DNA of 64,000 nucleotides, taken from positions 20,201,489 through 20,265,488 of the forward strand of contig CM055094.1 of assembly GCA_029204225.1 (NCBI GenBank), given 5' to 3'. The position numbers and the translations under genes are program-made. The notes under the pieces were generated by a model. That model was not told the DNA's origin. It did no database searches and was given only the letters and a program-made list of their open reading frames with translations. Within the stretch, counting starts at the first letter, position 1, and the number at the start of each line of letters is the position of its first letter. Below, one piece after another: positions 13,336 to 64,000 of this stretch. The DNA is from Diphasiastrum complanatum (lineage: Eukaryota; Streptophyta; Lycopodiopsida; Lycopodiales; Lycopodiaceae).

Positions 13336-13348
13336 CCGGGGATTGACA

Positions 13349-28447: not shown

Positions 28448-28454
28448 GGCCTCA

Positions 28455-28849: not shown

Positions 28850-28853
<4 letters not shown>
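28455..28853 (+). pseudogene. Histone H3-like (CENH3-like) gene, frameshifted copy, U2
   Basis: Starts MARTKQTARLTH like the intact copy at 58560. Compared with it, one base is missing near 28601 (ACCAACTTG against ACCAAACTTG) and two near 28633 (GAGGGAGG against GTGAGAGAGG). These bring an early stop after about 49 codons. The C-terminal histone-fold part (FEDSMLCSIHGKRVILMPKD) is still readable in another frame (28653-28898). It runs into minisatellite at the same place as the other copy. Confidence 0.8.
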
Positions 28854-29990
<1,137 letters not shown>

Positions 29991-37723: not shown

Positions 37724-38376
37724 TGTGAAAAATTGTCAACTAGTAGTATTTTCCTAACTTGAGATTTTGTAGGCCTATGGCCAAATAAAAGTTAGAGATA
37801 GGTTCATACATGTATGTAGAGGCCCAAAGTATGTGTACACTACTTTTGAGGTCACATTAATTAGAGGAGGTCGAGTGTGGAGCTCTTCTATTGGCTCATA
37901 ATTTGGTGCATTCCTATTTGACCAAATTTCTAGGTATATGGGTGAATCCTATTGGACCCCAATTTTAGCCTATCATAAGACAAGTGGCCAAGAGGCACTA
38001 TGGCTGCTATAAATAGCCATCTCCACGAGTATGTACACATCTCATTTTCATTCTATTGAATGAATGTTATGCTCTTTGAAGGTCCATCTTCTTCTCTCTC
38101 ACTTTTTTGTTCATATCTTGCATTCTAGCCACTAGAATTGTGATTTCTTTGTTGCTATGGCTTCACACATGTGAAATGCAGGTTGTAGGCTCTGAAGTAC
38201 GGACAGGGACAGCAAGTTTCTGTTTGTGGAAGCTTATGATCAGATTTTGATGTTTAGTTGATGTTTAGTATGCTTAACATCACAATTTCTATCATTTTTT
38301 CAATCTAGATGTGCATAACTTCCATGGCCAAGATCTTTATGAAACTTTAGCATCTTTTGGATCTGAGTTTTTCACA
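37724..38376 (+). repeat. 5' LTR of the copia element
   Basis: 653 bp. TATAAATAG at 38008-38016 is the likely core promoter; transcription would start about 30 bp later, giving a leader of roughly 900 nt before the ATG at 38986. Ends TTTTTCACA. Confidence 0.95.
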
Positions 38377-38394
38377 TGGTATCAGAGCATTAGG
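38377..38394 (+). promoter_or_regulatory. Primer-binding site (initiator tRNA-Met)
   Basis: TGGTATCAGAGC directly after the 5' LTR is the standard plant copia PBS complementary to the 3' end of initiator tRNA-Met. Confidence 0.95.
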
Positions 38395-38985
38395 CGGCCA
38401 AATGTGCAGGTTTTGCCAGATTTAGAAGAGATTTGTGGGCGAGTTTGCTTTTGTAGCATTCCAATCAAGTTTCTAGCTAAAAATCTTGTTGATTTATGTG
38501 TAGAAATTGGATCTTTGTGATCAAAACATCATTTGTATGCATTTCAATTGAAGTAGGGCGAATTCCCTCTGTACTTATCAGAATAAGGAGACAAAAATTG
38601 TTTTGGAAAGAGGGAGATGCAAGATCCAACAAGATCCTATTAGTTTTCCATTCTAGCATATAGTTTTTTGATTCAATTTCTTGCTTCTTCATGTCAAAAA
38701 CTTCAAAATTGATGTAACCCTCTGATTTTCAGTTTGCTGAATGATTCAAGAGTGTATTTCAATCTTAGGAGTGAGGGAAAAGCAAGTATATTGAGGTTTG
38801 GTCTTGGTTTGATCAAGAAATCATAAAACTAGTGGCTAAAATTAAGGAAAAAGTGAGGAAAAGAGAGAAAAAGTAAGGTTTTAGGTTCCAAATCTTTGTG
38901 ATTTCTTCTTGTGTTTCATTTGTTGATTCAAGAGAGTGCTTAGTGCATTGGAACAGGTCAAAGATCAGAGATCAATCATTGCAAC
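38395..38985 (+). other. Copia 5' untranslated leader
   Basis: About 590 bp between PBS and ATG; only a short upstream ORF (38311-38520, overlapping the LTR) is present. Packaging signals would be expected here, but none is recognisable by eye. Confidence 0.8.
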
Positions 38986-42936: not shown

Positions 42937-43584
42937 AAAATTGTCAACTAGTAGTATTTTCCTAACTTGAGATTTTGTAGGCCTATGGCCAAATAAAAGT
43001 TAGAGATAGGTTCATACATGTATGTAGAGGCCCAAAGTATGTGTACACTACTTTTGAGGTCACATTAATTAGAGGAGGTCGAGTGTGGAGCTCTTCTATT
43101 GGCTCATAATTTGGTGCATTCCTATTTGACCAAATTTCTAGGTATATGGGTGAATCCTATTGGACCCCAATTTTAGCCTATCATAAGACAAGTGGCCAAG
43201 AGGCACTATGGCTGCTATAAATAGCCATCTCCACGAGTATGTACACATCTCATTTTCATTCTATTGAATGAATGTTATGCTCTTTGAAGGTCCATCTTCT
43301 TCTCTCTCACTTTTTTGTTCATATCTTGCATTCTAGCCACTAGAATTGTGATTTCTTTGTTGCTATGGCTTCACACGTGTGAAATGCAGGTTGTAGGCTC
43401 TGAAGTACGGACAGGGACAGCAAGTTTCTGTTTGTGGAAGCTTATGATCAGATTTTGATGTTTAGTTGATGTTTAGTATGCTTAACATCACAATTTCTAT
43501 CATTTTTTCAATCTAGATGTGCATAACTTCCATGGCCAAGATCTTTATGAAACTTTAGCATCTTTTGGATCTGAGTTTTTCACA
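42932..43584 (+). repeat. 3' LTR of the copia element
   Basis: 653 bp, identical to the 5' LTR except position 43377 (G for A, creating CACGTG in a CACACGTGTG palindrome). Flanked by the GCACC duplication at 43585-43589. Confidence 0.95.
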
Positions 43585-43850: not shown

Positions 43851-45345
43851 AACCTAAACCAAAAAGAATCATATGCACATAAATATGCCTCTTCAAATCA
43901 TCATGCAATAATCAATCCAAATATATCACAAATAATCAATCATGCAATAATCAATCCAAATATCTCACAAATCAAGCAAAATTGAGACCAATCTTGACTA
44001 GAATTGCATTCACTTGATGAGCACTTGTCAAAAACATTGGGTTGACCATAAAATTTATTTTCTAAGATCTCAATAAGTCTAAGAACTAACTATTACAGTA
44101 CCAAAGACAAGGATCTACCTTCCATTTGATAGATTGAAAACTACGTGGCAGACCTACATGGTAGACCTATGTCCCTTTGTGTTGAATTTTTTCTGGATCC
44201 AAACATCTAGTGTGTGGCTATTAGGCTAGAGATAGCATGATATATTAATCTCAACATCAATTGGAGTGAGCTTCCGATCCACTTGAACACGAAACTTACA
44301 AGACTATTTGCTTCATGATGTAAATGTGAATCCAACTTATCAACAGTGTGATTCCCTATTGCACAATGGATCACTATCATCTCGTGGCAGAAAGTGATTC
44401 ACTGTTGTGCATATGTTCCATAGAGATGTGAGACACTTTACTGCAAATAGGCTTCAAAAAATTGGAAGGTAATTTGGTTGTACAAGAAGCAAGCGTTAAA
44501 GATTGTGCTCTCTTTCTCTTACCTTAAATGGTGCAAAAAAAAGCTACTAGAATATCGAACCAATAATATCACAAGCTACATTCATATGTGCTAAGATAAC
44601 ACGAAAGTGCAGACAATTTGCTTATAATAGGCAACTTTCAAATGATCATAATCATGGTGAGCTGCAAACTCCATCTTTGCCGTTACAAATTAGCCTACAC
44701 TTGGTATAAATAGCATCATTTCCACAAAAAAGAAACTTTCAGAGGAAGTTGATTTGTAGAAAAACTAGAACTTTAACATCAAAAAAGTCTTTAAGAATCT
44801 AGGTCCTTAATTTTCTCATTTGGTGTTCCATAGAGATGTGAGACACTTTACTGCAAATAGGCTTGAAAAGATTTGGTTGTACAAGAAGCAAGCGTTAAAG
44901 ATTGTGCTCTCTTTCTCTTACTTTAAATGGCGCAAAAAAGCTACTAGAATATCGAACCAATAATATCACAAGCTACATTCAAATGTGCTAAGATAACACG
45001 AAAGTGCAGCACAATTTGCTTATAATAGGCTACTTGGAAATGATCATAATCATGGTGAGCTGCAAACTCGATCTTTGCCATTACAAATTAGCCTACACTT
45101 GGTATAAATAGCATCATTTCCACCAAAAAGAAACTTTTAGAGGAAGTTGACTTGTAGAAAAACTAGAATTTCAACCTCATAAAACTCTTTAAGAATCTAG
45201 GTTCTTAATTTTCTCATTTGGTGTAGCTATGTATGTAAGCAAATGTTGCAGAACATTACAAAAAGTCACAATATCATGCTTTACTGCCATGCTGCCATGC
45301 ATGCTTTTTAGGAAATGAAAACAAACTCTGATGGGAGAAGATTTG
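43851..45345. other. Shared non-coding block with internal repeat, U3
   Basis: Copy of 4561-5700; a ~390-bp piece (CATAGAGATGTGAGACACTTTAC through GTATAAATAGCATC to TCTCATTTGGTG) occurs twice in tandem at about 44420-44825 and 44825-45230. No gene seen. Confidence 0.6.
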
Positions 45346-45822
45346 ATCTTGCTCAAACCTTTGGCCCATGACAGTCATCAGAAACTGGCAGAACTTGTGT
45401 TGTAGCTGGATTGTAGGATCGCGAGAATTGGAACTCAGTTCCCATAAATTATTGATTGATATATGACATTCCTTCTGCGAAGAGAACGAGCCATCTATTA
45501 TCGCAAAGTTGCAAGGATATGCTAATATGTTGTCTTCCGATCTGCATGCTTGTCTTCTACGAAATCTTGTGTCGAAAGAAGGATCATTTTGGACTTGCTT
45601 TGGTGCTTGCTCAAGCCTTTCATTCACGTGCGTATCTTTGAGGACTGGAGCTCTCCAACCGGTAGACGCCATTAATTCTGGCTGAGAAGAGCTCCCGATC
45701 AAATTAGATGCCGTCGTTGGAACTGACTTGTCCGCCGATACTATGTTCATTTCTAGGTCCTGCTCCATCTTCCTAAGCCGATGTTGGAGATCAACAATCC
45801 TTTTCTGAGACTCTTCAGCCTC
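45346..45822 (-). pseudogene. Tandem-domain gene, 5' fragment (duplicated), U3
   Basis: Near-identical to 33403-33880: coiled-coil exon and the first ~140 residues of domain 1, two amino-acid differences seen (RRQA for RRPA; MTVMG for MTIMG). It is truncated after FEQD by fusion to spacer DNA at TTTGATC, which adds unrelated C-terminal residues (ORF ends 45274). Confidence 0.7.
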
Positions 45823-47500: not shown

Positions 47501-48120
47501 TCTAGCATGAGCCAAATGCTGAGGGGTAGTGCTCCTGGAGCTTGTCAAAACCACACATTCAACACCGACTTGGGTTGAAAGCTCGCTACTAGTACGTTAC
47601 TGTGAAGAAACATCATCGTTTCCACATCCTATCAGAACGACATTGCTCCAAATTTGTCCACAAATTTCTAGTCTCCAAACACTGCCGAGCAATACTCTAC
47701 ATACACTGCTCATAGAGCCGCGCCCCCATACTCTGCAATCACCGTGGACCGAGGTGAGCATACATACTCTACATTCGCCGTCGAACGAGCTCAGCGTCCA
47801 TACTCTGCATACAAAGTTGATTGAGCCGAGTCCATCAAAAGTCGACCGATCCGAAGCCCTCCACAGTCGATTGAGCCGAGACTCCACTTGTCTATTACCA
47901 GAGCCGAATCTTCAACAGAGTCATCAGCCGAGTCCAGAACATGTCTGCCACAACATCTTCCAGTTCTGATGACCCAACTCAAGACAAAATTGACATCACC
48001 ATGGAAAGCCTCGATATTTCTTAGTTGAACATTGGTACCAGGAGGCACACTAGTTCCTGAGCCACATAGAGTTCCAACTTCCTCTTTTCAGTGGCTATCA
48101 GAGCCCATTTCAATTGCATA
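47501..48120 (+). pseudogene. SSDD gene, short copy, U3-b
   Basis: 36-bp repeats (about 47705-47815) and Ser/Asp segment SSDDPTQD; stop after MESLDIS. Joined to the CACGTG block at about 48128. Confidence 0.5.
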
Positions 48121-48510
48121 TTGCTTATACACGTGCTACAATACACGTCAATCTGCCGTTCGGCCACGTGCCCACACATGTGAGCTAACACGTGCTAGAA
48201 CACACGTCACCAAACCATTTGACCACATGGCCACATGTGCAAGTTTCACACATGTGGATACAAAAGTGTGGTCCCACACGTCAGGTACTGATTGGGCCAC
48301 GTGACCACACGTGTGAGCCGATACGTGCAAGAACACATGTCGCTGATCCATTCGGCCACGTGTCCCCATGTGGGATCCCACACGTGTTGATCCAAACGTG
48401 CAGTTTCACACATGCGTATACAAACGTGTGGTTCCACATGTCAGCTACTGACTGGACCATGTGTGATTGGGATTCATAGGTGCCAACTTTTTTCTCCTAT
48501 ATAAGTCCAT
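48121..48510 (+). promoter_or_regulatory. CACGTG-rich promoter with TATATAAG, U3-a
   Basis: CACGTG/CACATG array followed by TCCTATATAAGTCCATTC (TATA at 48497-48504). Here it stands before the small MAGNSRDFRK ORF, not the H3-like ORF. Shared with the other blocks up to about the predicted start site. Confidence 0.6.
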
Positions 48511-48526
48511 TCGCAAGGATTGTACA

Positions 48527-48774
48527 ATGGCCGGTAATTCCAGGGATTTCAGAAAGGTCAACATACGACGAGTTGAGGCTACAACTACTAGGTCTAGTGT
48601 TGACGTATGCATTTGAGAAAGTGCCGATTATCAATCCATGGCATTCCTTATGAATTACGAGTGTTTTTGGGATTGAGGGTTGGATCCTATAAAAATCAAT
48701 TCCAACGTAGCCCTGCAATCAGAAGAAGGCCACCATATGATGGCCTGACTAATCAAGAAATGTGTGTTTCTTGA
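48527..48774 (+). pseudogene. Small ORF MAGNSRDFRKVNIRR, frameshifted
   Basis: ATG about 25 bp after the TATA box. The first frame gives 29 residues (to SSVDVCI, stop). A second frame opens just before and continues CHLRKCRLSIHGIPYELRVF to RRPPYDGLTNQEMCVS, stop at 48774. Together they would give an ~80-residue basic protein with one frameshift near 48605. The short TATA-to-ATG distance leaves almost no leader. Family unknown; an exon of a longer gene is possible because TTCTGCAG at about 48890 resembles a splice acceptor. Confidence 0.35.
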
Positions 48775-49214
48775 TTCTTGTTCTTTGAAATGCTTTCTTA
48801 TTTAGCTTTTTATTTCTTGTTTCTTAATTATGTTTGTTGCATGTTAGATTAGTTTTATTCACAAGCATCTATTTCATTCGATTCTGCAGCAAGTAGGAGT
48901 AGGAATTTATTAGGTGTTCATCCGAGTAATACGCTAATCCATTCATGAGCATCAGGACTTGCATGTTTTCAAGTAATGTGAGTACAGTTCAGGAGTGAAC
49001 ATTGCCCGAGTATCCTGTGACAGGTTGGATATAACTACAACACGATGAGATTTCTTTGCCTGAGTGGGTAATAAATCGAGAGGACTAATTCATAAGAAAC
49101 TCGGGAAGCTTGGTAATAAGCAGAAGTGAAACCCAACCAACAACGTGGCAAACTGTAACAGATCTTAAAGAGAACAATCAATAGATTGATAGGGAATCAG
49201 TAAACAAGGTTTCT
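48775..49214. other. Single-copy segment, U3
   Basis: About 440 bp found only once in the window, pyrimidine-rich at the start (48780-48830). No ORF of note. It may be intron or 3' UTR of the preceding ORF, removed from U1 by deletion. Confidence 0.5.
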
Positions 49215-49955
49215 ACATAAGCTTGCCATAGGCTTGTGTCGCAAGCCAACCATGCTCTGCCATGTAGGCTTGAGTGGATCTAGAGAGAGAAAGAGGTGGA
49301 TCTTGCAAGCTACTACATGGAAAGCCACGTAGGCCTGCCACATGGAAAACCATGTAGGTCTACCTCGTGCCAAGTCTTGCAACTTAGGGTTTGCAAACAC
49401 GTAGGTCTAACATAGGCTTGTGTTAAACGTAGGTCTAACATAGCCATCCAGTCTTTGCCACGTAGGCCTGAGTGGACCTAGAGAGAGAAAGAGGGGGCTC
49501 ATAAACTGCCAGGTAGCCAACCACATAGTCCTACCAAAGGCTTGTGTGGTTTACCACATGGCCTACCATAGGCTTGTGTGGTTTACCTCATGGCCTACCA
49601 TAGACTTGTGTAGCAGGCCACATAGGCCTGCGATCGACCAAGGCTGTCATAGGTGCCCACGTGTCAAGTCACGTATAACTGCCATGTGGCAAATCATGCA
49701 AGCTTGGGGTTAGCCATGTGGCAAGCCACGTAGGCCCATCATAGGCTAGCAAGCCAACCAGGCTCTGCCTACGTGGTCTACTATTTGCGAAGCTTATTGC
49801 ACACTACCACATGGCAAGCCACGTAGGTCTACCACATGGCAAATCATGCAGGCTTGAGGGTTGCCATGTGGCAAGCCATGTAGGCCTACCATAACCTTGT
49901 ATGTCAAGTCAACTGGGCCCTATGCCACGTAGGCTTGAGTGGACCTAGAGATCTA
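49215..49955. repeat. GC-rich minisatellite, U3-a
   Basis: Repeats with GCCACATGGAAAACCATG, CATGGCCTACCATAGGCTTG and CCACGTAGG. 49545-49955 is close to 13425-13811. Confidence 0.75.
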
Positions 49956-49968
49956 TATATATATATAG
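49951..49968 (+). promoter_or_regulatory. TATA-type promoter of RT gene, U3
   Basis: GATCTATATATATATATAGG, then GTGGGCTCAAATCTCTTGCC and the ATG at 50029, 60 bp downstream. Same as the 13812 copy. Confidence 0.5.
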
Positions 49969-50028
49969 GTGGGCTCAAATCTCTTGCCATAAAAACTAGC
50001 CAAGAAGATAAACTTTTTTAAACCCTAA

Positions 50029-50946
50029 ATGTGCCCTAAAAGACACAAAAAACATCAAGTATCAAATCTAAAAAATCAGCACCAAAATGTGTCGAAACCA
50101 CACATTAGATGGATGCAGGAACTCGCCCTCCTACAAGCCTTGTGTGCTGAAAATTTCAGCCTGAAATTGCATTACAAACTCAAAAAACCAGCAAGCAAAG
50201 AATTAGGTTACCCCCAAAAAAGCAATATTCCTTTGAACGGGATTGATGGTTTGAAAACTATTATGACTAAAATGATTTGTTCGGCATTTAAAATTGCCAA
50301 AATCAAATTGCTCAAATACAAACGAATATCTGGAACCAATGATTTTAAATGGGTTTCGAAAAATACAGGTTCATATGAATGGAGTACTATAGACCGCAAG
50401 AATACCTTATGCATTTGGAATTCCTATTTGATAGACAATTGCATTATCAGACATGGGGATCATACCTGGCGACAGGTCGGGGGAATACGAATGGGTTTTT
50501 CATATTCACCAATGTCTTGTAATTGGTACCTTTCTTTTTTTGAAATGCAATTTATTAAGAGGCTTGCAAGATTAGGGGAAATTAAATTTATAAACGACTT
50601 CAAATATTCGTTCAGGTACATTGACGATATATGCTTTATCAATAATCATACAGTTGGACGTTTCCTAGACAAGACTCAACCAAGAACACCTGACAATCCT
50701 TTTTGGATCTATCCCCTGGAATACCTTGAGATAGACGGAAACGACAACACATGTAATTTGGTGAACATTCTGAATATTACAATTACCTTTAATCCAATTA
50801 TCGGTCATACACATCTGTCCAAATATGATAAAAGGGGAGACCTTCCTTTTCGCTTTTTGCAATATATACACCTTGCCTCATATAGACCCGTGTTTAACTC
50901 ATATAATAGATCTTTGGTAACTTGGGGTAGCTTGATATGTATCTAG
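50029..50946 (+). CDS. Reverse transcriptase fragment, non-LTR (Penelope-like or related)
   Basis: 305 codons. Palm motif B is QVGGIRMGFSYSPMSCN (149-165), followed by LSFFEMQFIKRL. Motif C is FRYIDDICFINN (195-206). WIYPLEYLEI (226-235) and SKYDKRGDLPF (264-274) then match the thumb-side pattern of a repetitive eukaryotic RT family. KSNIPL (64-69) may correspond to the segment just after motif A, but the motif A aspartate is not visible. The first ~60 residues (basic, MCPKRHKK) look unrelated, so the protein is probably chimeric or N-truncated and inactive. No GIY-YIG endonuclease is seen. The TAG stop lies on the inner edge of TIR-R. Confidence 0.65.
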   Translation: MCPKRHKKHQVSNLKNQHQNVSKPHIRWMQELALLQALCAENFSLKLHYKLKKPASKELGYPQKSNIPLNGIDGLKTIMTKMICSAFKIAKIKLLKYKRISGTNDFKWVSKNTGSYEWSTIDRKNTLCIWNSYLIDNCIIRHGDHTWRQVGGIRMGFSYSPMSCNWYLSFFEMQFIKRLARLGEIKFINDFKYSFRYIDDICFINNHTVGRFLDKTQPRTPDNPFWIYPLEYLEIDGNDNTCNLVNILNITITFNPIIGHTHLSKYDKRGDLPFRFLQYIHLASYRPVFNSYNRSLVTWGSLICI

Positions 50947-51166
50947 GCAACTAATAAAGCAACAACACACCTCTGGATGGATTCACAAGCCTCTCTAACT
51001 CATTCTTATGATACTATCATTATGTCTAACTTTCCAAATACTAGATGCAAGAGTATCTGACAGATTCCTAATTCTTTACTCTCCAAGTGTTGTTTGTAGC
51101 TCATCGTAGATGCTTTGAGAATAATGTTACTAGTTATATTGATTGGGGGGGGGGGGGGGGGGGGGG
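50943..51166 (-). repeat. Right inverted repeat with poly-G, U3
   Basis: Inverted partner of 31459-31682, ending in a 22-G tract (51145-51166). Its inner CTAG contains the RT stop codon. Confidence 0.7.
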
Positions 51167-51813
51167 ATTTTGGATTTTTTGCTCTTGAATAGGGATTTTG
51201 GAAGTTCCTCTATTGCATTCAGGTTTGCCATTACTTTTCCCTATTTACTTTTTTGGGTTAAGGCAATTGAAAGCCTTAAAAAAAAGCAATTTTTGTGGAG
51301 TACTTTGTAGACCTAGCAACTGTATCCTTTTAGAGGTGTATGCTATTTTTTTCCATTTGAAAAAGGCTTCTAATAATCACTTAAGGGTCACTTGATTGGA
51401 AATTGGCACAGTGGCAATTCATAGTATGGATTGTCAGCTGATTACCAAAAGGAGTGCAAATGGAATGTCCTCCATATTGAAAGATGCTCTCAGAGTAGCT
51501 AAATCCTATGATAGCACCGTGATTGCCTCACGGAAGAGTATGCACAACCAATCAGCCCAAAAACCTAAGAATGAAAAGCCAAAAAATAATAAGATAAAAA
51601 ATCTATTTTTTGATGAACTAGAAGCTACTGCTTGCCAACAAACTTGGGCATCATGCCAAACAAAGATTCGAGAGGGAAAATAAATCATCAAGTTTCATGG
51701 CGATGGATTTACCGACAGGTAAATTGAAAGTCGATTTGTTAAATGGTTGTGAATTGAAAGTTGATTTGTTAAATGGTTGTGAATATACTTATAACTTCTG
51801 TACACTTTCTTTC
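51167..51813 (+). mobile_element. Gypsy remnant, truncated, U3-a
   Basis: ORF 51396-51683 (IHSMDCQLITKRSANGMSS, KPKNEKPKNNKIKNL) then the start of the protease-side ORF with a VDLLNGCE repeat, cut at 51813 by the tandem-duplication junction. Confidence 0.65.
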
Positions 51814-52108
51814 GGTTGGACATTTCCTAGACAAGACTCAACCAAGAACACCTGACAATCCTTTTTGGATCTATCCCCTGGAATACCTTGAGATAGACGG
51901 AAACGACAACACATGTAATTTGGTGAACTTTCTGAATATTGCAATTACCTTTAACCCAATTACCGGTTGTACACATATGTCCAAATATGATAAAAGGGGA
52001 GACCTTCCTTTTCGCTTTTTGCAATATATACACCTTGCCTCATATAGACCCGTGTTTAACTCATATAATAGATCTGTGGTAACTTGGGGTAGCTTGATTT
52101 GTATTTAG
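51814..52108 (+). pseudogene. RT C-terminal fragment (tandem copy)
   Basis: Encodes FLDKTQPRTPDNPFWIYPLEY to SLICI, the last ~95 codons of the RT ORF, fused in frame to gypsy-derived codons upstream (ORF from 51773). No catalytic motif. Confidence 0.7.
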
Positions 52109-52316
52109 GCAACTAATAAAACAACAACACAACTCTGGATGGCTTCACAAGCTTCTCTAACTCATTCTTATGATACTATCATTATGTCTAACTTTCCAAA
52201 TACTAGATGCAAGAGTATTTGACAGATTCCTAATTCTTTACTCTCCAAGTGTTGTTTGTAGCTCATCGTAGATGCTTTGAGAATAATGTTGCTAGTTATA
52301 TTAATTGGGGGGGGGG
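52106..52316 (-). repeat. Second TIR-R copy with poly-G, U3
   Basis: Tandem copy of 50943-51166 with a shorter G tract (52307-52316). Confidence 0.7.
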
Positions 52317-53640
52317 ATTTTGGATTTTTTGCACTTGAATAGGGATTTTGGAAGTTCCTTTATTGCATTCAGGTTTGCCATTACTTTTTCCCTATTAACT
52401 TTTTTGGGTTAAGGCAATTGAAAGCCTTAGAAAAAGAAGCAATTTCTGTGGAGTACTTTGTAGACCTATCAACCGTATCCTTTTAGAGGTGTATGCTATT
52501 TTTTTCCATTTGAAAAAGGCTTCTAATAATCACTTAAGGGTCACTTGATTGGAAATTGGCACAATGGCAATTCATAGTATGGATTGTCAACCGACTACCA
52601 AAAGGAGTGCAAATGGAATGTCCTCCATATTGAAAGATGCTCTCAGAGTAGCAAAATCCTATGATAGCACCGTGATTGCCTCACGGAAGAGTATGCACAG
52701 CCAATCAGCCCAAAAACCTAAGAATGAAAAGCCAAAAAATAATAAGATAAAAAATCTATTTTTTGATGAACTAGAAGCTACTGCTTGCCAACAAACTTGG
52801 GCATCATGCCAAACAAAGATTCGAGAGGGAAAATAAATCATCAAGTTTCATGGCGATGGATTTACCGACAGGTAAATTGAAAGTCGATTTGTTAAATGGT
52901 TGTGAATTGAAAGTTGATTTGTTAAATGGTTGTGAATATACTTATAACTTCTGTACACTTTCTTTCAAGTCTAATCAATGGTTTGAAGTTAAAGGCAATA
53001 TTCTAGGGAAAGACATAAGTATAATGTTTGATTTTGGAGGTACTCACAACTTTTGGAATGTGCGGCTTGTATAGAAGCTTCGGGTGCCCACCATGGCCAG
53101 TGATCAACATTATGTGGTCCTCTAGCCTCAGGGTCAGACACAGAAGTTTGGGATGTGAAAGTCCCTAATTTGGAGGTTCGGATGCAAGATCATGTTGAGC
53201 GGCTCGACTTCCATGTTGTGAATCTTGATAGAACTTATGGAATCCTAGGATATGAATGGTTTTTTGATAAATCAGATTCGTTGAAAATAGATTTTAAAAA
53301 CCATACTATTGTATTTAAAGATAAGTTTGACCAGATAGTCTCTATTTATGGGGAGACTAATGTACTCCCATCACTAATGGTTTCCTCGGTGGAAGTTATG
53401 GAAAAACTACATAATTCTAAGTATGAGCTTTTTCATCTTGTTTTGAAATCTCGTATGCATTGTGATGTGAATGTGTTAACATGCTTTAACACCAAAAATT
53501 AGCATCAACAACAGCTTTTAACATTCTTTAACGTCAAAAATTAGCTTTTAATGCAAGATTTTAAACAAGAGAGTTCAATGATGTTTTTCCTAAATAACTA
53601 AGATTTTTGGAGGTACATACTTCTAATTATATTGCAGTCC
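52317..53640 (+). mobile_element. Gypsy gag-pol remnant with protease, U3-b
   Basis: Most complete copy: 52549-52836 (gag-side segment), 52850-53074 (FEVKGNILGKDISIMFDFGG), 53155-53502 (DFHVVNLDRTYGILGYEWFF to VLTCFNTKN). Stops separate them. The protease Asp-Phe-Gly replaces Asp-Ser/Thr-Gly. A ~30 bp local repeat near 53515 splits the pre-RT segment. Confidence 0.75.
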
Positions 53641-54611
53641 GTTGTTAGCACATAAACAAATTTTTCTGAAATGAAATCTTTGAAATGTTTCAAAGAAGAG
53701 CAAGAACATAAAGATAGATTTTCAATTTCAAAATTGCATAAAACATCAAACAGAAAGTACCATTCACTTTTGATGTTAGGTAAGTATGACCAAGCAAACA
53801 CAATATCATGGAAGGACTTGTGTATATAAGGCCAAAGATCTGTAATAAAATACAAGTGTAAAAGTGTCTCACATGAATGGTCTCAAACATTCTATTACAG
53901 TAGCGTAAATGTAAAAATATCTTTGCCTTGTCCTTGCGCGTGCTGAGCTGTAGTCGATCCACCGTATTCCTAGTGAGAGTTCTTCTATGCAGATCCTTGT
54001 CATCCTGCGAGCTAGTTAATACCTGTAAAAGTTCAGTCTTTTAGCCAGTAAGTCTTCTTTTGCACCACTGCCTTGTCCTTCCTTTCCCTTATATCATGTA
54101 TACTTCTTTCTTTTTCCCATATTTTGTCCAGAAACCACCGAACTAGGGTTGTTTAGGTTGAAAGAACCAGGTCTTTCATTTGAGTTTTGGAAGAATTTAT
54201 CTTGGATAGTGAAAAAAGTGGTCTTTTGAGGAGGCGTTCAAACTCTCTGATGTTTTCAGCATCTCCTAAGTTGGCAAGGAGTTTAGCAGAAGGGTTTGCA
54301 GCAAATCAATCATGTGCTGGCGTAAAAAAGAGAAAAGTATGTATAACTTGACAACATCTCTGCCAAGCTTGTGTAGCCAAAGAAAAAAGCCATTCATCTA
54401 ATTTTGGAAGGATGCACCAGGGAAGAATTTACTAAGATTGTTCATCATGAAACACAATGATCCCAAAAAAAAAAATTTACATGGAGACCCATTTTTTTTT
54501 AATTTTATAAAAAAAATACCCATATTTAAAATGCTTCAAATAAAGATATTGTAATGCTAAAAAAAATTTTGTCTTTTGCAAGAAAATTAATCAAGCTACT
54601 AAAATTTTAAG
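53641..54611. other. Gypsy-associated tail and short AT-rich block, U3
   Basis: Non-coding copy of 6851-7730 with only ~120 bp of the AT-rich block. ORF 53690-53962 (minus) is the counterpart of 6918-7190 and is treated as a shadow. Confidence 0.5.
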
Positions 54612-55990
54612 ACCTAACCTGAACCAAAAGGAATCATATGCACATAAATATGCCTCTTCAAATCATTCCTACAAGATCAGTCGAATCATCATGCAATAAT
54701 CATCGTTTCCACATCCTATCAAAGCAACATTGCTCCAAAGTTTTCCACAAATTTTTAGTCCGCATACACTGCCGAGCAATACTCTACATACGCTGCTCAG
54801 AGAGCCTAGCCCCCAGGCTCTGCAATCACTATGGACCGAGTCGAGCGTCCATACTCTGCATTCACTGTGGACTGAGTTGAGCGTCCATACTCTGCATACA
54901 AAGTTGACTGAGCTGAGTCCATCCAAAGACGACCGATCCGAAGCCCTCCGCAGTCGACCGAGCCGAGACACCACTTGTCTGTTACCAGAGCCGAACCTTC
55001 AACAGAGTCCTTCGCCGAGTCCAGAATATGTCTGCCACAACATCTTCCAGTTCTGATGACCCAATTCTAGACAGAATTGACATCACCATGGAAAGCCTCG
55101 ATATTTCTGAGATGAACACTTGGTACCAGGAGACACACCAGTTCCTGAGCCACATAGAGTTCCAACTTCCTCTTTTGATCAGTGGCTATCAGAGCCCATT
55201 TCAATTGCATATTGCTTATAACCACACTGACAGATTTTCCAGTTCATGTTACCTCCTTACCAAAATTTTGTTTATATTATCCCTATTTCAGGAGCTGACA
55301 TCACCACATTTGGCTTCCCTAGGGGACCAAACACAATCAATAGGACCCTCAAAAAGATTGAATCCACAACATACTTGAAATACATAGACCCCTCAGTGGA
55401 CAAATGGAAAAAAAAAGATGGTTATCCTATTGAGGTCATAAATGATAAGCCCTTAGCTGCTCCGTGCGCCTATCTAACGAAATATACATAGGGCTATAGG
55501 TCCAAGATCACGCGTATCCCCATGAAACTATTCCACATGATGGCTGATTCTAAACTACACGATCAGAACCTTTATGACTGGGCCCAGTTTGCTGCCAACT
55601 GCCTCCATGACTATATCAAGAACAAGTAAACCTCCAGTTATTGAGCTATCTTCTGATAGATGTCACTTTGCAGCAGTTGAGCCACCGACCTCGATTTTGA
55701 GACCACTTGATGCTAGCAGATAAAAGCTTGGGAGACTCCCTCAAAACCAGCCAAAAATACCAACTCTACTTTTAGGTCTATTGCAACATATTCCACGCAA
55801 GCAGCTTCTCAAAAGAGAAAGAGTTCCTCCTCTCCACAAGGGCCAACTGCAAAGCACCAAACGGTCGACCTAGTGAAGCTTACATCGAGAGAGACACCCA
55901 TGTACTCTATGTCACCGATGAAAGATCGATACAAGCGAAGCGTCATGCTTCATCAAATGAAACAGACTCAAATGATATGGAGTTTACATT
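54612..55990 (+). pseudogene. SSDD gene copy, U3-c
   Basis: 36-bp repeats (54800-54905), SATTSSSSDDPILDRIDITM, MNTWYQETHQFLSHIEFQL and the shared frame change. Then come MLPPYQNFVYIIPISGAD (55246), KKDGYPIEVINDKPLAAP, stops, KHQTVDLVKLTSRETPMYSM and the HASSNETDSNDMEFTFEDFHG segment. The RNA could start upstream of the repeats, but no promoter is clear. Confidence 0.5.
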
Positions 55991-57780
55991 CGAGGACTTC
56001 CATGGAGATATATAACAAGTGGGTTTTCTTCTAGATTAATCTATCGATTATTAAGATGTCTAAATATCATCTCCATATTGATCTTCCCACAGAATATGCT
56101 CCACTGTCGAGAAAAAATCTGAAAGGATCCACCTTACCTGCTCACCAAAGGACAAAAGACAGGAAACATTGTGATCTATGGGTTGATGGAAGTTTGTATC
56201 CAATCGATCCAAGCTCAATGCAACATCCAAATTTTAGATTGGTCACACAACTCATACTGTTTTTGTGTGAAGGACACAATAGTCTATTGGGTTATTGTGA
56301 AAGATTGAAAAGTTATGGCATTAGTTATTCAATGAAAAAAAATCCACTATTTGGAAAATATGTTGAATGATTTGCTTACTGACTACCGAGAAAAAGAAAC
56401 TTTTTTTTGCAAACAAAAGAAGAAAATGAAATCTTGGAGATAGATAATTCTCGTTTGCAAGATATTATATTAAACCTCAACCAAGAAACTGACAATATGA
56501 AACTAATTGTACAAACATTGTGTACCTCATAATGTCAAATAAATGTAGAAGTAAACACATTACGGAAGAAAATACTGAACAATAAGTGAAAAAGGGTTAT
56601 TTTAAAAAGTATTGATGAGCTCTCAACAAGTGGGGGTCAACGGAAAAAAAGAATATATGCTTTCAAGTAGGATTATGTTTTAAACTATTCATGTGTTTTG
56701 TTTCATCTAGCACATCAATGGTTGTGAATTGTTTTTTTCTAAATCTTATTTTTATTTTGTAGAGCAACTTTAGTCACCAAAGACAAGGACATGATTGGAA
56801 AGTCTTTGAGTGCAGTACTTACAACCAAGTCAACGACGAGTCTACTTGGAAATCAACGATATTCTCGAATCAAGTCCAAGATTGCAGAGGCCCTTATGGG
56901 CGAAGTCGGCAAGATCTTTGACCGAAAATTGATACAAGGAGCATGTGATTATTCTGGTATTAGCAGGGATGCATATGACACAATGTTTAAAATTATCAAA
57001 GAGGCATTTGGACAAGTACATATAAAACAATTTCCTATTCCTCGGCCCTTTCAAATCAAATTAGAGAGGGATGTCTTAAACATGGGTATGAAAAACATCA
57101 TTGGTATTTATAAATGAAATTTATAACTCAAAATATGGCACTTTGTCATATGATTCTACCAACAATATGTTTGTAGATCTAAATCATTTATAGAGATTTA
57201 TTGTAAAGTTTTATGGAATCACAAATGAAATTGTTGAAAAATTGATATTAGTTCTCCAAGTTAGATGAATCAGGAGTAATAAAGGGACAAAAGCTGGAAA
57301 GGGTTAGTGTTACACTTATGAATGGAACATTAAGCAATACGATAAACTCAGAGAGTCTTAATTTCAGTGTGCAGTCCGAAAATAATATTTGGTGGTTGGC
57401 AGCTTTCCAGGTTTAAATCTATTCTATTGAGTACTAGCAACTAATTCATTTCGAGAATTAATGGTTTTGTGTTTTAAGCTAATATTGTTTTGTTATTATA
57501 GGTCTGAGTTCAATTCTCTTAAAATAGTTCATGATTTTGTGTTTCAAACAAGTTTTAAAGAAGATCATAAAATTCTATTTTGGATTTTTAGTAAAACAGA
57601 ATAGCCAGAGATAATTAAGAATCATATGAGCGACACACCACTCAATGTTCCTAGAATAGGTGATTTTAAGGTGGAATGGTATTTGGTTCACACACCAAGA
57701 GCTACAGGGAGTGAAAATCCAAAACTTAGCGAAGTGTTTTAACTGATCAAACAACATTTATATAGCTAAAACCAATAAAA
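55991..57780 (+). pseudogene. Multi-exon coiled-coil gene, fuller copy, U3
   Basis: Exon 1 starts at MSKYHLHIDLPTEYAPLSRK (56056), includes CDLWVDGSLYPIDPSSMQH and a coiled coil (EENEILEIDNSRLQDIIL, about 56430-56530) in shifted frames, and ends TTCAA at 56666. A 96-bp GT-AG intron (56667-56762) joins in frame to KATLVTKDKDMIGKSLSAVL. Exon 2 reads ISRDAYDTMFKIIKEAFGQ and later GQKLERVSVTLMN and ENNIWWLAAFQ. A second intron starts at 57411 and ends at 57501 or 57508. The last exon contains IGDFKVEWYLVHTP and a stop near 57741, with AATAAA at 57774. Several frameshifts and an in-frame stop make it a pseudogene. Family not recognised with confidence. Confidence 0.55.
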
Positions 57781-57829
57781 CCCAAGCCGTACACTCGTCG
57801 ATCCAACAGCGGATCAGATCTATGGCGCG

Positions 57830-58240
57830 TAATACAACCGTCTACACGTGTGAGACCACACGTGCTACAATACACGTCAATCTGCCATTCGGCCACGTGC
57901 CCACATGTGCGAGCTAACACGTGCCAGGACACATGTCACCAAACCATTCGACCACATGGCCACATGTGAAAGTTTCACACGTGAGGATACAGAAGTGTGG
58001 TCCCACACGTCAGTTACTGATTGGGCCACGTGACCAAACGTGCGAGCCGATACGTGCAAGAACACATGTCGCTGCTCCATTCGGCCACGTGTCCCCACAT
58101 GGGATCCCACACGTGTTGATCCAGACGTGCAGTTTCACACATGCGTATGCAAACGTGTGGTTCCACATGTCAGCTACTGACTGGGCCACGTGTTGCTGGG
58201 ATTCACACGTGCCAACTTTTTTCTCCTATATAAGTCGATT
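57830..58240 (+). promoter_or_regulatory. CACGTG-rich promoter with TATATAAG, U3-b
   Basis: I count ten exact CACGTG hexamers between 57845 and 58212, plus CACATG variants, then TATATAAG at 58227-58234. It precedes the intact H3-like ORF by ~330 bp. CACGTG is the plant G-box core. Confidence 0.65.
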
Positions 58241-58299
58241 CCCGGGGATTGTATAGGTTTTCGCGTAATTTGTTGTCATGTTTGATTGCTTCCATACGA

Positions 58300-58553
58300 C
58301 CTGCATTCGTGATATCGCCATCATGCGGGTGACCTCATCCCCAGGCCTCGTCCTTACACCCTCTCACGTCGTAACGATATCAGCCTGACTTTCCTAGTAT
58401 CACCATCATGCAAGCCCTTGCCTCTCCCCGCCGGTCTCTGCCACTCTCGCGTTGTAGCGATATCACCCTTAGAGTTCTCAGTGTCGCCATTACGCGAGAT
58501 AATTTAGCTCTCTCTTCTACTATATCTTTGTCCTCGCGTGGTATAGATATCCG
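58300..58553 (+). repeat. Three ~85-bp leader repeats before intact H3-like ORF
   Basis: GATATCGCCATCATGCGG, AGTATCACCATCATGCAAG and AGTGTCGCCATTACGCGAG start the three units; GTA(G/A)CGATATCA-type ends close them. Same organisation as 28204-28447. Short ORFs in the leader (58408-58674) are out of frame with the histone. Confidence 0.75.
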
Positions 58554-58559
58554 GCCTCA

Positions 58560-59018
58560 ATGGCTCGGACGAAGCAAACCGCTAGGCTTACCCATTTTGT
58601 TCAACCGTCCCGTCCCCAGACATCTAAATCCATACGTCTGGAAAGACGCGGAAGACCTCGTCGTCCATGGTTGAGGGACATCAGGGCCTTGCAGAGGTAC
58701 ACCAAACTTGTGATCCTGAAAGCAGCCTTGTATTGGGCTGTGAGAGAGGTTACACAAGATATGACCACACATCTGCCCTATGCAGTGAGGTGGAATATCG
58801 CTGCATTGGAGGCCCTCCATATTGAATACGAGGACTTCCAGACAAAAATGTTTGAGGATTCGATGTTGTGTTCCCTTCATGGCAAGAGGGTGACACTGAT
58901 GCCAAAGGACATGCTTCTTGTCATGAGGTTTCGAAACACCTATGACAGCGGTATGCCACATGGCAAATCATGCAGGCTTGAGGGTTGCCATGTGGCAAGC
59001 CATGTAGGCCTACCATAA
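58560..59018 (+). CDS. Divergent histone H3, CENH3-like, intact ORF
   Basis: 152 residues, no intron. The N-terminus MARTKQTAR is identical to H3, but Lys9 is Leu. The fold aligns without gaps from RPRRPWLRDI (alpha-N) through ILKAALYWAVREVTQDM (alpha-1). Loop 1 (TTHLPYAVRWN) is four residues longer than in H3 and has the Arg-Trp of plant CENH3. Alpha-2 keeps FEDSMLCSLHGKRVTLMPKD; Ser-Met-Leu-Cys and Val-Thr-Leu-Met are CENH3-type. The H3 fold ends at about residue 130 (VMRFRNTYD); the last ~22 residues are translated minisatellite. It could replace H3 in nucleosomes or be an inert captured copy. CENH3 identity is inferred. Confidence 0.8.
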   Translation: MARTKQTARLTHFVQPSRPQTSKSIRLERRGRPRRPWLRDIRALQRYTKLVILKAALYWAVREVTQDMTTHLPYAVRWNIAALEALHIEYEDFQTKMFEDSMLCSLHGKRVTLMPKDMLLVMRFRNTYDSGMPHGKSCRLEGCHVASHVGLP

Positions 59019-59668
59019 CCTTGTATGTCAAGCTACCTAGGCCCTATGCCACGTAGGCTTGAGTGGACCTAGAGATCTATATATATATATAGATGGGCTC
59101 AAAAGTTGCCACTTGGCAAACCACAGAGGCCTACCATAGGCTTGCGTGGCAGGCCACATAGGCATGGCATATTTCTACCACATAGGCTTGCCATAGGCTT
59201 GTGTGGCAAGCAAACCAAGCTCTGCCATGTAGGCTTGAGTGGAGCTAGAGAGAGAGAGCTGGGGCTCCCAAGTTGCCATGTGGCAAGCCATGTAGGCATG
59301 TCATGAGATGAACCATAGGCTTGCGCGGCAGACCACATAGGCATGGCATATTTCTGATGCTTCCCACGTAAGCATGTTGCAGGATACCACATAGGCTTGC
59401 CATAGGCTTGTGTGGCAAGCCAACCAAGCTCTGCCATGTAGGCTTGAGTGGAGCTAGAGAGAGAGAGCTGGGGCTCCCAAGTTGCCATGTGGCAAGCCAT
59501 GTAGGCCTATCATAGGCTTGCGTGGTAGGTCATATAGGCATGACATAGGCTTGATGCTAGTATGTTCATGCTGGTATGTTGCAGTCTACCATATAGGCTT
59601 GACATAGGCTTGTGTTGCAAGCCAACTAAGGAATACCACGTGGGTCTGCCATGTAGGCTTGAGTGGAA
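58955..59668. repeat. GC-rich minisatellite, U3-b
   Basis: Starts inside the H3-like ORF. TA box at 59078-59091 (GATCTATATATATATA) without a gene downstream. Contains the higher-order repeat with GAGAGAGAGCTGGGGCTCC at about 59245 and 59460. Confidence 0.8.
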
Positions 59669-59671
59669 TGA

Positions 59672-59706
<35 letters not shown>

Positions 59707-59707
59707 T

Positions 59708-59744
<37 letters not shown>
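59669..59744. repeat. Compound (GA)n(GT)n(GA)n microsatellite, U3/U4 junction
   Basis: GA tract interrupted by a GT tract (about 59706-59731). The two other unit junctions have pure GA, so the GT block is a later change. Confidence 0.95.
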
Positions 59745-59746
<2 letters not shown>

Positions 59747-59965
59747 TGAGGAGTCACACATGAACTACTTCCCTGTGGTATGGCCTAGCATCAACGTTGA
59801 AAAAAATATCTGATGGAGATAAGAAGGGTCCCAAGCAAATTTTAACTGAGAATCTTGCAGAGAAAGTATTGAAACCATAGTTGGCGAGGGATTCCAAAGA
59901 ATCGAACTTGAGTGTACAAGCCCAACAAAAGCGCATTCACCAACTCACCACACATGGGAAGATCG
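59745..59965 (-). mobile_element. SINE-like element, U4
   Basis: Minus strand: A-box-like at 59950-59940, B-box-like GTTCGATTC at 59907-59899, body, then dinucleotide tail. Confidence 0.45.
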
Positions 59966-61430
59966 TTAAATGTGAATTTGAAGAAAAATCATTGAAATGT
60001 TTATAGATCGATATTTAACAAAATCATATATATTATAATCTTCACACGTGTGAAATCAAGATCTACAAGAAAATCAACATTCTACACATAGAAAACCAAG
60101 ATAGAGAAAATCACATGAGATGGACATAAGAGATGAATTCTCCACAAAGAAAGAAACTTTGATGATTATTTCTCCACTTAGGTACAACTATTTATAGCTT
60201 CCAAAATGTCATTTGGCCACTTGCCCCTAACTTGACCTAATTTGGAAACTTCTAAATACTTTATCAGAAACCTAGAAAATCTAGTCTAGATGCAATGTAC
60301 CAAAATTAGCCAATTAGAATGGGTCCAAACTCGACCTCATCCACTGATCTACTTGCCAGAGGTAGTCAAACCACTATTTAGACCCTTATTAACAAATATG
60401 AAACTAACTCGAAGTTGAGATTCATTTTGGCCTCCAAAATTGCCAAATGAAAAACCAAACTAGTTGACAATTTTTCACACCATCTCCTCTAGACATCTCC
60501 ATTGATGAATACAATTTATAAGTTTTTGAAAGCAATGTACCAAAATTAGCCAATTAGAATGGGTCCAAACTCGACCTCATCCACTTATCTACTTGCCAGA
60601 GGTAGTTAAACCACTATTTAGGCCCTTATTAACAAATATGAAACTAACTTAAAGTTGAGATTCATTTTGGCCTCCAAAATTGCCAAATAAAAAACCAAAC
60701 TAGTTGACAATTTTCACACCATGTCCTCTAGACATCTCCATTGATGAATACAATTTATAAGTTTTTGAAGGCAATTCCGAATGCAATCAGGGTCATGTTT
60801 TAGCTCAGTGATCTCTCTTTCACATTACAAAAGTTTTTAAAATACATCGTTCTAGGATTCGAGAATGGATTTTGGAATGAATTATATTTCATTGAAGTTT
60901 GACCTTGAAAATTTGAAGGTTGAATGAAGCTGTAATCTAGGATTTTCAAAACTCAAAGTTGTTCATGCAAATTAAGTCATTTTTGTTAATATATTAAAAT
61001 GTTGTAATCTAGGGTTTTCAAAAACAAATTGAAAATTTGTTAAAAAAAATGCTTATTTCTTGTTACACGACTAAATAACATATAGTTAAAAAGCATATAA
61101 TGAATCTATGCTATGTTCCAAACATATGCAAGTTACATTGCATTCATTCGCACTTCACAAATCATTGGAATTTGAATTTGAACGAAATCATTGAAATGAG
61201 TAGATCAATGTTTAAATGAAGCGATAAATATTATAATCTTCCCATTTAATTCAATTATATTTATATATTATTGGTGCATTAATAGGGTAAAAACTCGTTA
61301 TTATTATTTTCTTTGTTTCTATTAATTCAAGCAAGCACAGCTCGTCTAGATGATGACCACAATGCCTCTAAGGAGAAATAGTTTTTCATTTTTTTTAATT
61401 TTGATTTTTCTTCAAATTCAAATTTAATGA
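59966..61430. other. Spacer with 240-bp tandem duplication and left-flank block, U4
   Basis: Non-coding; tandem units at 60307 and 60547 as in U2; left-flank block from 61065. Confidence 0.7.
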
Positions 61431-61500
61431 TCTTCCCATGTGTGGTGAGTTGGTGTCTGCACTTGAGTTGGGCTTGTACACTCAAGTTCGATTCTTTGCA
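61431..61500 (+). mobile_element. SINE-like head, U4
   Basis: A-box-like at 61443-61453 and B-box-like at 61486-61494, joined to TIR-L. Confidence 0.4.
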
Positions 61501-61870
61501 ATCCCCCCAAATTAATATAACCAGTAACATTATTCTCAAAGCATGTACTATGAGCTAAAAACAACACTTGGAGAGTAAAGAGTTAGGAATATGTCAAACA
61601 CTTTTACACCTAGTATTTGGCAAGGTCGGATTCTTTGCGATAACCCAACCCCCCCCCCCCAATTCTTAATATAACTTATCAAAGCATCTAGTATGAGCTA
61701 CAAACAACACTTGGTAAGTCTTAAGACTTGGAGAGTAAAGAGTTATGCATTTGTCAAATACTTTTACACCTAGCATTTGGCAAGATAAACACAATGGTAG
61801 TAATTATAAGAATGAGTTAGACAAGCTTGTGAAGCCATCTAGAGGTGATTTGTTGTTTAGTTGCCTAGCT
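61501..61870 (+). repeat. Left inverted repeat with poly-C, U4
   Basis: Double structure, second C tract 61649-61660. The matching right end lies beyond the window. Confidence 0.65.
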
Positions 61871-62664
61871 ACATATCAAGCTACCCCAAGTTACCAAACA
61901 ATTTACTATTATTTTGAGTGACAACCATGAAGCTATCATGATTTGAAATGACATCAATATATTAAGCTACTCCAAAGTTGACCCTTTCCGAGGAAGCTTC
62001 TCTCTTGAAACTATAGCAAAAAGCTCTTATTCAAAGGAACAATCAAGGGTCGAGTACTTACCATACGAGATGAAGACCAACAAGTAGGGCAAGGAAAGAA
62101 GATGTACGGCTTACTTTGCTATGTGCTTGGAGGTATGCTGAGCATGCTTGGAATATGAAGAACATGTGTTTTCCAAAAATATTAGTAGTCTCACAAAAAG
62201 GCTTGGAGTAACATTAGAATTTGGAAGTGGTGCACCTACTTTGGATGGATGATCACTAACAAACAATTTCTGTCTAGTCCTTTTGCCGTGATATGTTTCC
62301 TCTTGTCGATATGATATTTTCATTGTGTGTCCAAATATTTTTTGAACAGAATATGTGTAACCTAATTATTGTTGATTTTGATTTAATGAGCATTCAATGT
62401 TCATTTAATACATTAAATCAAATATCAACGATGAGAACATATACATATACACAATGAGAAGAAGGTATATCTAGATCATAGATTATGAACTAAATTGGAC
62501 ATTTCAAAAGCAGTGGAGAGATAGATTAGCAGTTGAGTGCCATATATATTGGCCCTAGATAACTATAATCGTCAATCTTAAAAGCTCCAATCAACAAATG
62601 TTGATGTTTTCAATGTACTCAATTCAAAAAATTGCGCCTAAAGGATTTTCTTCATAACATTTGT
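61871..62664. other. Spacer with conserved 70-codon ORF, U4
   Basis: Copy of 808-1605; small minus ORF 62111-62323. No other gene. Confidence 0.55.
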
Positions 62665-64000
62665 TCAGGAATAGTGGGCATCATGCTTATGATATTGCTC
62701 GCGCAGCCACTTGGAGCAGGTTCGAGTCAGCATTTGTCTTCGACCAGCAAATGCTTTTGATCTCTGGGTGTAAGCCTTATCAGCATTGACGATAAAGCCT
62801 GAAGTGCACATCTCTTCGAAGATTTGTATGGAGTCTGCAGGAAAGTATTGTATCCGTAAATAGATCCTGGTATCCTCCATGTGAAGCGCCGGTTTGTTGG
62901 GATTGATGAAAAATTGTGGATCCTGCTCAAACCTTTGGCCCATGATAGTCATTAGAAACTGGCAGAACTTGTGTTGTAGCTTGATTGTAGGATCGTTAGA
63001 ATCGGAAGTTAATTTGCAAAAATTCTTGATGGATGTATGACATTCCTTTTGAGAAGAGAACGAGCCATCTATTATCGCAAAGTTGCAAGGATATGCTGAT
63101 ATGTTGTCTTCCGATCTACATGCTAGCGCTCGTCTTCTACGAAAACTTGGGTCGAAAGAAGGATCATTCTGAATTTGCTTTGGTGAATGATCAAGCATGT
63201 CATAGACGTACGTATCTTTGAGGAATGGAGCTCTCCAACCGGTCGACGCAATTAAATCTGGCTGAGAAGAGCTCCTCATCGAATTAGATGTCGTCGTTGG
63301 AACTGACTTGTCCCCGTCTTTCCGTCTATCAGAGTCGAATTACTGGCACGCTTATGATTTTGCTCACGTAGCGAGTTGAAGCAGTTTCGAGTCAGTATTT
63401 GTCTTCGACCAGTAAATGCTTTTGATCTCTGGGTGTACATGTAACCCTCATCAACATTGATGATAAATCCTGAAGTGCACATCTCTTCGAAGATATGTAT
63501 GGAGTTTGCAGGAAAGTATTGAATCCGTAAATAGATCCTGGTATCCTCCATGTGAAGGACCGCTTTGTTGGGATTGATGGAAAATTGTGGATCTTGCTCA
63601 AACCTTTGGCCCATGACAGTCATCAGAAACTGGCAGAATTTGTGTTGTAGCTGGATTGTAGGAACGCGAGAATCGGAACTCAGTTCCCAAAAATTATTGA
63701 TTGATGTATGACATTCCTTCTGAGAAGAGAACGAGCCATCTATTATCGCAAAGTTGCAAGGATATGCTGATATGTTGTCTTTCGATCTCCATGCTCGTTT
63801 TCTATGAAACCTTGGGTCGAAAGAAGGATCATTCTGGACTTGCTTTGGTGCTTGCTCAAGCCTTTCATTGACGTGCATATCTCTGAGGACTGGAGCTCTC
63901 CAACCGGTAGTTGCCATTAATTCTGGCTGAGAAGAGCTCCCGATCAAATTAGATGCCGTCGTTGGAACTGACTTGTCCGCGTTTTTGCGTCCTACCATAA
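62665..64000 (-). pseudogene. Tandem-domain gene, frameshifted, partial at window end, U4
   Basis: Both domains are present: domain 1 in ORF 63998-63276 and domain 2 in ORF 63279-62665. A one-base loss near 63330 (CGTCTATCAG against CGTCCTATCAG type sequence in the linker) shifts the frame between them. Domain motifs AYPCNFAIIDGSFSS, LQHKFCQFLMT, ADSIxIFEEMC and WLREQYHKH are intact. The 5' end (coiled-coil exon) is outside the window. Two proteins or a pseudogene are possible. Confidence 0.6.

Follow-up and report, generated by a model that had tools for sequence, protein, structure and literature searches.

A probable relic of a CENH3-like histone gene in a repeat array of the clubmoss Diphasiastrum complanatum

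Introduction

Does a repeat array in the genome of the clubmoss Diphasiastrum complanatum carry a working centromeric histone, or what is left of one? The question is raised by a reading frame at 58560-59018 (+) of a 64-kb window, by which we mean the whole stretch of DNA that was analysed. The frame is open over 152 codons and intronless, and the initial annotation took it for a CENH3-like gene carried by a tandemly amplified, transposon-rich unit. The explanation that we favour, with a probability of roughly 0.64, is that a fast-evolving H3 variant of a clubmoss, most plausibly CENH3, was captured as an intronless copy, which was passively amplified and is now decaying.

A histone reading frame that ends in satellite

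Judged by its sequence, the protein predicted from 58560-59018 is a divergent member of the H3 family. The Pfam Histone profile (PF00125) matches residues 5-124 with 63.3 bits (E 3.2e-17, cut-off 26.4), and the sequence matches in the PDB are histone H3 chains with E values down to 2.2e-18. It is H3, not CENP-A, that leads these PDB matches, with one H3/CENP-A chimera among the best 60 of 173. Family membership, first proposed from the letters of the sequence, is thus upheld by the profile search, and so are the details on which it was proposed: the MARTKQTAR start, an ungapped alpha-N and alpha-1, the Arg-Trp pair, FEDSMLC and KRVTLMPKD are all found in this frame, and in the alignment loop 1 is indeed four residues longer than that of H3.1. 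Outside the tail and loop 1, the histone frame aligns without gaps to both H3 and CENH3. The frame and the sequence that follows it divide as below.

58560-58949 (+): histone H3-like coding part, codons 1-130, with alpha-N, alpha-1, long loop 1, alpha-2, loop 2 and alpha-3; from Pfam, the alignment and AlphaFold2 helices (low confidence)
58950-59018 (+): C-terminal 22 codons and stop, satellite-derived and non-histone; the same sequence lies at 13686, 21453 and 49826
59020-59680 (+): satellite of the GCCATGTGGCAAGCC/ACCATAGGCTTG type, directly 3' of the histone; from sequence comparison

The histone portion of the 152-residue product runs from residue 1 to about residue 127-130. From 58950 onward the frame reads GMPHGKSCRLEGCHVASHVGLP, which is satellite sequence, and at the three places where it recurs in the window it is preceded by more satellite and by no histone. 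The frame therefore reads through into satellite, and the C-terminus and stop codon of the histone itself are missing. The 152 open codons and the lack of an intron stand as originally described; a histone along the full length does not, since only some 127 residues are histone and the rest is satellite.

Structure prediction contributed little to this assignment. AlphaFold2 placed helices at residues 36-46, 54-69, 76-106 and 115-126, where they would be expected of an H3, with a pLDDT of 62.2 and a pTM of 0.30, and a Foldseek search with this model gave no match at E <= 0.001. An annotated CENH3 (P0134) modelled with the same 30 sequences reached 62.7 and 0.29, and since this control is equally low, the low confidence is uninformative on the clubmoss protein. 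The predicted structure was accordingly dropped as proof of a histone fold, the control having shown that the test is powerless. A viral origin of the frame was also considered and set aside, as one scan of viral contigs found no relative of it.

A cassette between two repeat modules

Upstream of the histone lie a leader and a promoter module, the latter recurring elsewhere in the window with other sequences attached to it.

57840-58250 (+): promoter module, an array of CACGTG/CACATGTG motifs that ends in TATATAAG (58227); from motif counts
58251-58559 (+): leader, absent from the window outside the two histone copies; from the alignment
48129-48524 (+): histone-free promoter module, after which a different short reading start, ATGGCCGGT, is found; 92% identical to 57858-58253
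13081-13345 (+): promoter module without histone, followed by the same different start, ATGGCCGGT, and then by satellite; 94% identical to 57987-58251

The TATA box, the leader and the G-box-rich promoter of the initial annotation are all present. Ten CACGTG motifs occur in the 391 bp of 57840-58230, where 1000 mononucleotide shuffles give 0.097 on average, and the TATA box (TATATAAG) starts at 58227 and is followed by a leader of about 300 nt. Within the leader, 58300-58464 and 58384-58551 form an imperfect duplication with about 65% identity. At 13346-13410 and 48525-48588 (+) another short frame, MAGNSRDFRKVNIRRVEATTT at 48.5 kb, follows the module, so that at least two different sequences have come to lie downstream of it. 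With junctions at about 58251 and at 58950, and with both flanking modules occurring elsewhere without a histone, the histone cassette is bounded at about 58251-58949; it consists of leader and coding part, and it sits between two unrelated repeat modules.

The junctions bear on how the cassette came to be there. A captured gene agrees with the position between repeat modules, and a retrocopy may explain the missing intron. The further marks of a retrocopy, a polyA tail and a target-site duplication, were not seen: no polyA stretch was found at the 3' end of the cassette (the longest run of A in 58900-59050 is 3), nor any direct repeat of at least 6 bp common to the two junctions. These absences are counted against a retrocopy, and a capture that went through RNA would be our reading of the intronless state.

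Two copies in a macro-repeat

The window contains the histone twice, each time within a longer block.

28455-28906 (+): second histone copy, with small deletions and a premature stop; tblastn 83% over 142 residues, and alignment
28144-28454 (+): leader of the second copy; from the alignment
56565-60218 (+): duplicated block with the open copy, the pair of 26478-30241; blastn 92.5% for 56565-59753
26478-30241 (+): duplicated block with the frameshifted copy; from blastn and alignment

The small deletions shift the frame of the second copy. The distance between the two copies is 30.1 kb; several sub-repeats return at intervals of 11.5-12 kb. When the blocks are compared in 36 windows of 100 bases, 26 reach at least 95% identity over ungapped columns, and the leader stretch differs from 58236-58559 at 19 of 324 sites. 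Because the blocks are collinear, a duplication of the region, and not transposition of the histone, would seem to have made the two copies. Antisense frames are open in both, at 58557-58961 (-) with 134 codons and at 28452-28853 (-) with 133 codons, the latter although the sense frame of that copy is broken; they are possibly a by-product of base composition.

The description of the carrier as a tandem, transposon-rich unit holds in part. It is a repeat-rich tandem array, but each histone copy belongs to a duplicated block, some 30 kb from the other, and a comparison of all six frames of 48001-64000 with Pfam at E <= 0.01 gave no transposase, Histone being the sole family found. There are no inverted repeats of at least 150 nt in the 64-kb window. 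Between 55500 and 61500, eight inverted pairs of at least 14 nt occur, and two imperfect AT-rich pairs enclose the histone (56328-56346/60878-60896 and 56598-56614/60828-60844); no target-site duplication is evident at the outer of the two. Inverted seeds of 10 nt number 128 against a local-shuffle mean of 37, a count that is probably raised by a single 97-nt pair and that we did not use as evidence. This pair, 59895-59991/61402-61498, lies downstream of the histone, is 93% complementary with 1.4 kb between its arms, and could mark the ends of a small separate element.

Other elements are scattered along the array.

37724-43584 (+): young element of the Ty1-copia type, its 1316-codon ORF intact; LTRs at 37724-38376 and 42932-43584
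50029-50946 (+): ORF of 305 codons containing a YIDDI stretch that resembles reverse transcriptase; RVT_1 matched weakly, E 0.028
1606-2274, 18906-19535, 32477-33826, 45274-45768 and 62665-63998 (-): family of ORFs of about 220 codons, of two types and partly tandem-fused; from tblastn

The Ty1-copia element is inserted in one array unit, with LTRs that are 99.8% identical and a GCACC target-site duplication. The 305-codon ORF has no match in the PDB or NCBIfam; we presume, as a guess, a Penelope-like origin. In the family of about 220 codons, five of the seven long tblastn matches are free of stops, one of the five being truncated; pN/pS in three pairs is 0.93, 1.74 and 1.03, and no Pfam family scored above its cut-off in the two members scanned. 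Rfam and tRNA scans of the window gave no matches. EN(-) PLEs are listed for Selaginella in PMC9033089.

A close relative and the case for CENH3

A search of about 5.8 billion proteins yielded one close relative among the matches listed, the Diphasiastrum complanatum hypothetical protein O6H91_14G014700, which is 77% identical over 89% of the frame; the other 11 lie at 36-45%. The two share tail, loop and core, and they have a common origin. O6H91_14G014700 is open over 137 codons and is the better preserved at several places: it keeps Leu-Ile-Pro as well as a Phe and an Arg in alpha-1, and it ends in IFKFGFT where the window ORF ends in satellite. Its alpha-1 starts with LIPKAAF, as in plant CENH3 (LIP...F), whereas the window protein has VILKAAL. 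Relative to it, P53L and F57L are found in both window copies, and Trp in place of Arg at H3 position 69 in the open copy alone. NCBIfam has no match for either protein.

Several residues of the window protein resemble those of a centromeric histone. With Arabidopsis CENH3 it has in common an Arg-Trp (H3 positions 83-84), a Ser-Met (107-108) and a Leu (119), and DSM(L/M)C and RVTLM are further characters of this kind. The resemblance to plant CENH3 of the HTR12 type covers the MART start (in some of them), the Arg-Trp after loop 1, DSMLC and RVTLM, and in O6H91_14G014700 also the Leu-Ile-Pro before alpha-1, at H3 positions 61-63. There are also differences. Loop 1 exceeds that of H3.1 by 4 residues in the window protein; among 16 plant CENH3s the excess is 1 residue in 13 rows and 2 residues in the other 3, so that the clubmoss loop is the longer by 2-3 residues. 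Within alpha-N, 5 of 11 places depart from RPGTVALREIR in both the window protein and O6H91_14G014700, against 0-2 in the 16 plant CENH3s. The family further differs in its short tail, in the centre of alpha-2 (H-x-x-Y-E-D-x-Q-T-K) and in an altered end of alpha-3, and the window ORF also in having no intron and in the loss of its C-terminus.

Profile scores lean towards CENH3 by small margins. The window protein scores 87.2 bits with the CENH3 profile and 85.0 with that of H3 (+2.2 bits), and O6H91_14G014700 scores 104.8 and 96.4 (+8.4). For the 16 plant CENH3s the margin is +68.8 to +143.2, the same rows having built the profile, and it is +48 to +123 for four of them left out in turn.

Trees were computed from a hand-picked set of 51 rows (46 of 250 proteins and five typed references), and from a subset of 34 rows without the window protein and without 16 unclassified rows; no lycophyte CENH3 was among the references of either set. 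In the free 51-row tree the window protein and O6H91_14G014700 fall outside CENH3. Their stem measures 1.67 changes per column, and by path length the unclassified x_P0149 and H3.1 are their nearest neighbours. When the pair is held with CENH3, the likelihood is 2.92 above that of the free tree (AU p 0.614); when it is held with H3, it is 4.83 below (AU p 0.262). In the 34-row tree O6H91_14G014700 joins the 16 plant CENH3s with a support of 95/98, and placing it with H3 lowers the likelihood by 2.75 (AU p 0.329). A placement with H3 is rejected by neither tree. The CENH3 identity put forward in the initial annotation thus keeps the residue set, the long loop 1 and the 34-row tree on its side, and is weakened by the margin of 2.2 bits, by the unrejected H3 placement and by PDB matches led by H3. 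On these sequence data CENH3 is plausibly the better reading than another divergent H3, favoured and no more.

The protein searches, which include lists of the best 120 of 7991 and 120 of 128, gave no named homosporous lycophyte CENH3 among the matches listed. A hybrid query that had been made to resemble CENH3 served only to collect CENH3 and H3 rows, and its ranking is no evidence. Two alignments took in 30 of the 250 proteins. The search with a four-sequence alignment listed, as its best 120 of 7991, proteins of 269-312 aa that are probably two-domain H3s, none of which was used.

Constraint and decay

If the open copy were a working gene, its coding part might be expected to have changed less than its surroundings. 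Between the two copies, 23 of 387 coding sites differ (5.9%). The same comparison gives 3.3% and 4.6% for the outer flanks, 3.7% for the satellite, 5.7% for the promoter and 5.9% for the leader. The coding differences fall evenly on the three codon positions (8, 7 and 8). Nine of them are synonymous and 14 nonsynonymous, which gives a Nei-Gojobori dN/dS of 0.425; a neutral simulation in which transitions have the share found between the copies leads one to expect 16.3 +/- 2.1 nonsynonymous changes against the 14 of 23 found (P(<=14) 0.19). With O6H91_14G014700 as outgroup, 7 derived amino-acid changes fall to the open copy and 6 to the frameshifted one, with 1 undecided, 3 of 130 codons having been skipped for gaps. 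Nor do the changes avoid the conserved core: between the window protein and O6H91_14G014700, 5 of 33 near-invariant core positions differ, as do 11 of 58 other core positions (Fisher p 0.78).

Purifying selection on the open copy was therefore undetected by the flank-level divergence, the neutral simulation and the equal derived changes alike. From these sequence comparisons the open copy would be indistinguishable from a pseudogene, and weak constraint would be compatible with so few changes. The idea of a functional gene with a role in marking centromeres or an effect on them, which the initial annotation raised, is not supported: the protein is truncated, conserved core residues are changed, and changes accrue as they do in its broken twin. 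Any transcript of the open copy would, we infer, be without centromeric function. The parent is another matter. Because a histone is still readable at the end of so long a stem, the data imply that the parent was a real, fast-evolving H3 variant long under selection.

Weighing the explanations

An H3 variant of a clubmoss would have been captured, as a copy that lacks introns like a transcript, between the CACGTG-rich promoter module and the satellite, at the cost of its own 3' end; the whole region would then have been duplicated as a macro-repeat, and the copies would since have drifted, one becoming frameshifted and the other still open. What counts against such a relic is the dN/dS of 0.43, which comes from few changes, together with the TATA box, the leader, the 152 open codons and the long selection on the parent lineage that the stem implies. 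That the parent was a CENH3 may be disputed. The captured gene may have been a divergent H3-like variant other than CENH3, with an independent origin for its Arg-Trp, its Ser-Met and its long loop 1; capture, duplication and decay would be unchanged. This we hold to be doubtful, though several observations suit it: both profile margins are small, the H3 grouping stands unrejected in both trees, alpha-N and loop 1 lie beyond the range of all 16 plant CENH3s, and MARTKQTAR is identical to H3, which also heads the PDB matches. Plants moreover have heterogeneous 'H3-like' genes, with or without introns, as described in PMC4357034. The co-occurrence of several CENH3-type residues and the 95/98 support for O6H91_14G014700 among the CENH3s speak for the centromeric parent instead.

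Explanations that keep the histone at work fare worse. One is a working, lineage-specific family of histone variants, with O6H91_14G014700 and some array copies expressed in the manner of tandem multicopy histone genes. The 137 open codons of O6H91_14G014700, the promoter features at the open copy, the past selection implied by the long stem and the point estimate of dN/dS would all suit it, yet amino-acid changes are equally frequent in the open and broken copies, the coding part is conserved no better than its flanks, the C-terminus has been replaced by satellite, and the other ORFs of the array have a pN/pS near or above 1; we regard it as unlikely. More improbable still is that the repeat family expresses a CENH3-like histone and that the proteins of its less decayed copies, such as O6H91_14G014700, rival the CENH3 of the host or add to it and label the array; if it were true, this would be a histone-encoding repeat able to influence its own chromatin. 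We give the least credence to a selfish repeat whose CENH3-like cargo would serve to set up centromeric chromatin at the array, or to bias it. A tandem array with satellite, such a cargo and a promoter module of its own is what one would look for in it, but only one of the two copies is open and that one looks unconstrained, and meiosis in lycophytes is symmetric, so that centromere drive is not expected (PMC11687628). The locus provides no evidence for a centromere-acting mobile element.

Known parallels and what the locus may tell us

A parallel to the captured, decaying copy that we favour is known from fungi. Transduplicates of histone H3 carried by hAT elements occur in Pseudocercospora fijiensis and Pyrenophora tritici-repentis; in P. 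fijiensis all H3 copies but the original are inactivated, and there is evidence for the capture of a transcript or retrocopy (PMC6710886); PMC3538342 is a further paper on this subject. Common to both systems is an intronless histone H3 copy within repeated DNA. On the fungal side there is a canonical H3, a hAT element with terminal inverted repeats and mutation by RIP; on the clubmoss side there is a CENH3-like variant in a macro-repeat without recognised transposon ends. The clubmoss locus resembles an event of this type in which the cargo is CENH3-like. Among the titles and abstract beginnings listed by literature searches, two of which showed 15 of 102 and 12 of 18 records, neither a plant example of H3 capture by mobile DNA nor one with a CENH3-like histone was found.

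According to a 2015 survey (PMC4357034), one or two CenH3 genes are present in all species studied, Selaginella included, with the exception of Picea abies. For those who annotate clubmoss genomes, the locus is a warning that CENH3-like ORFs in repeats may be relics and not genes. The histone family to which it belongs offers, at the same time, a starting point for tracing the centromeric histone of homosporous lycophytes, which evolves fast.
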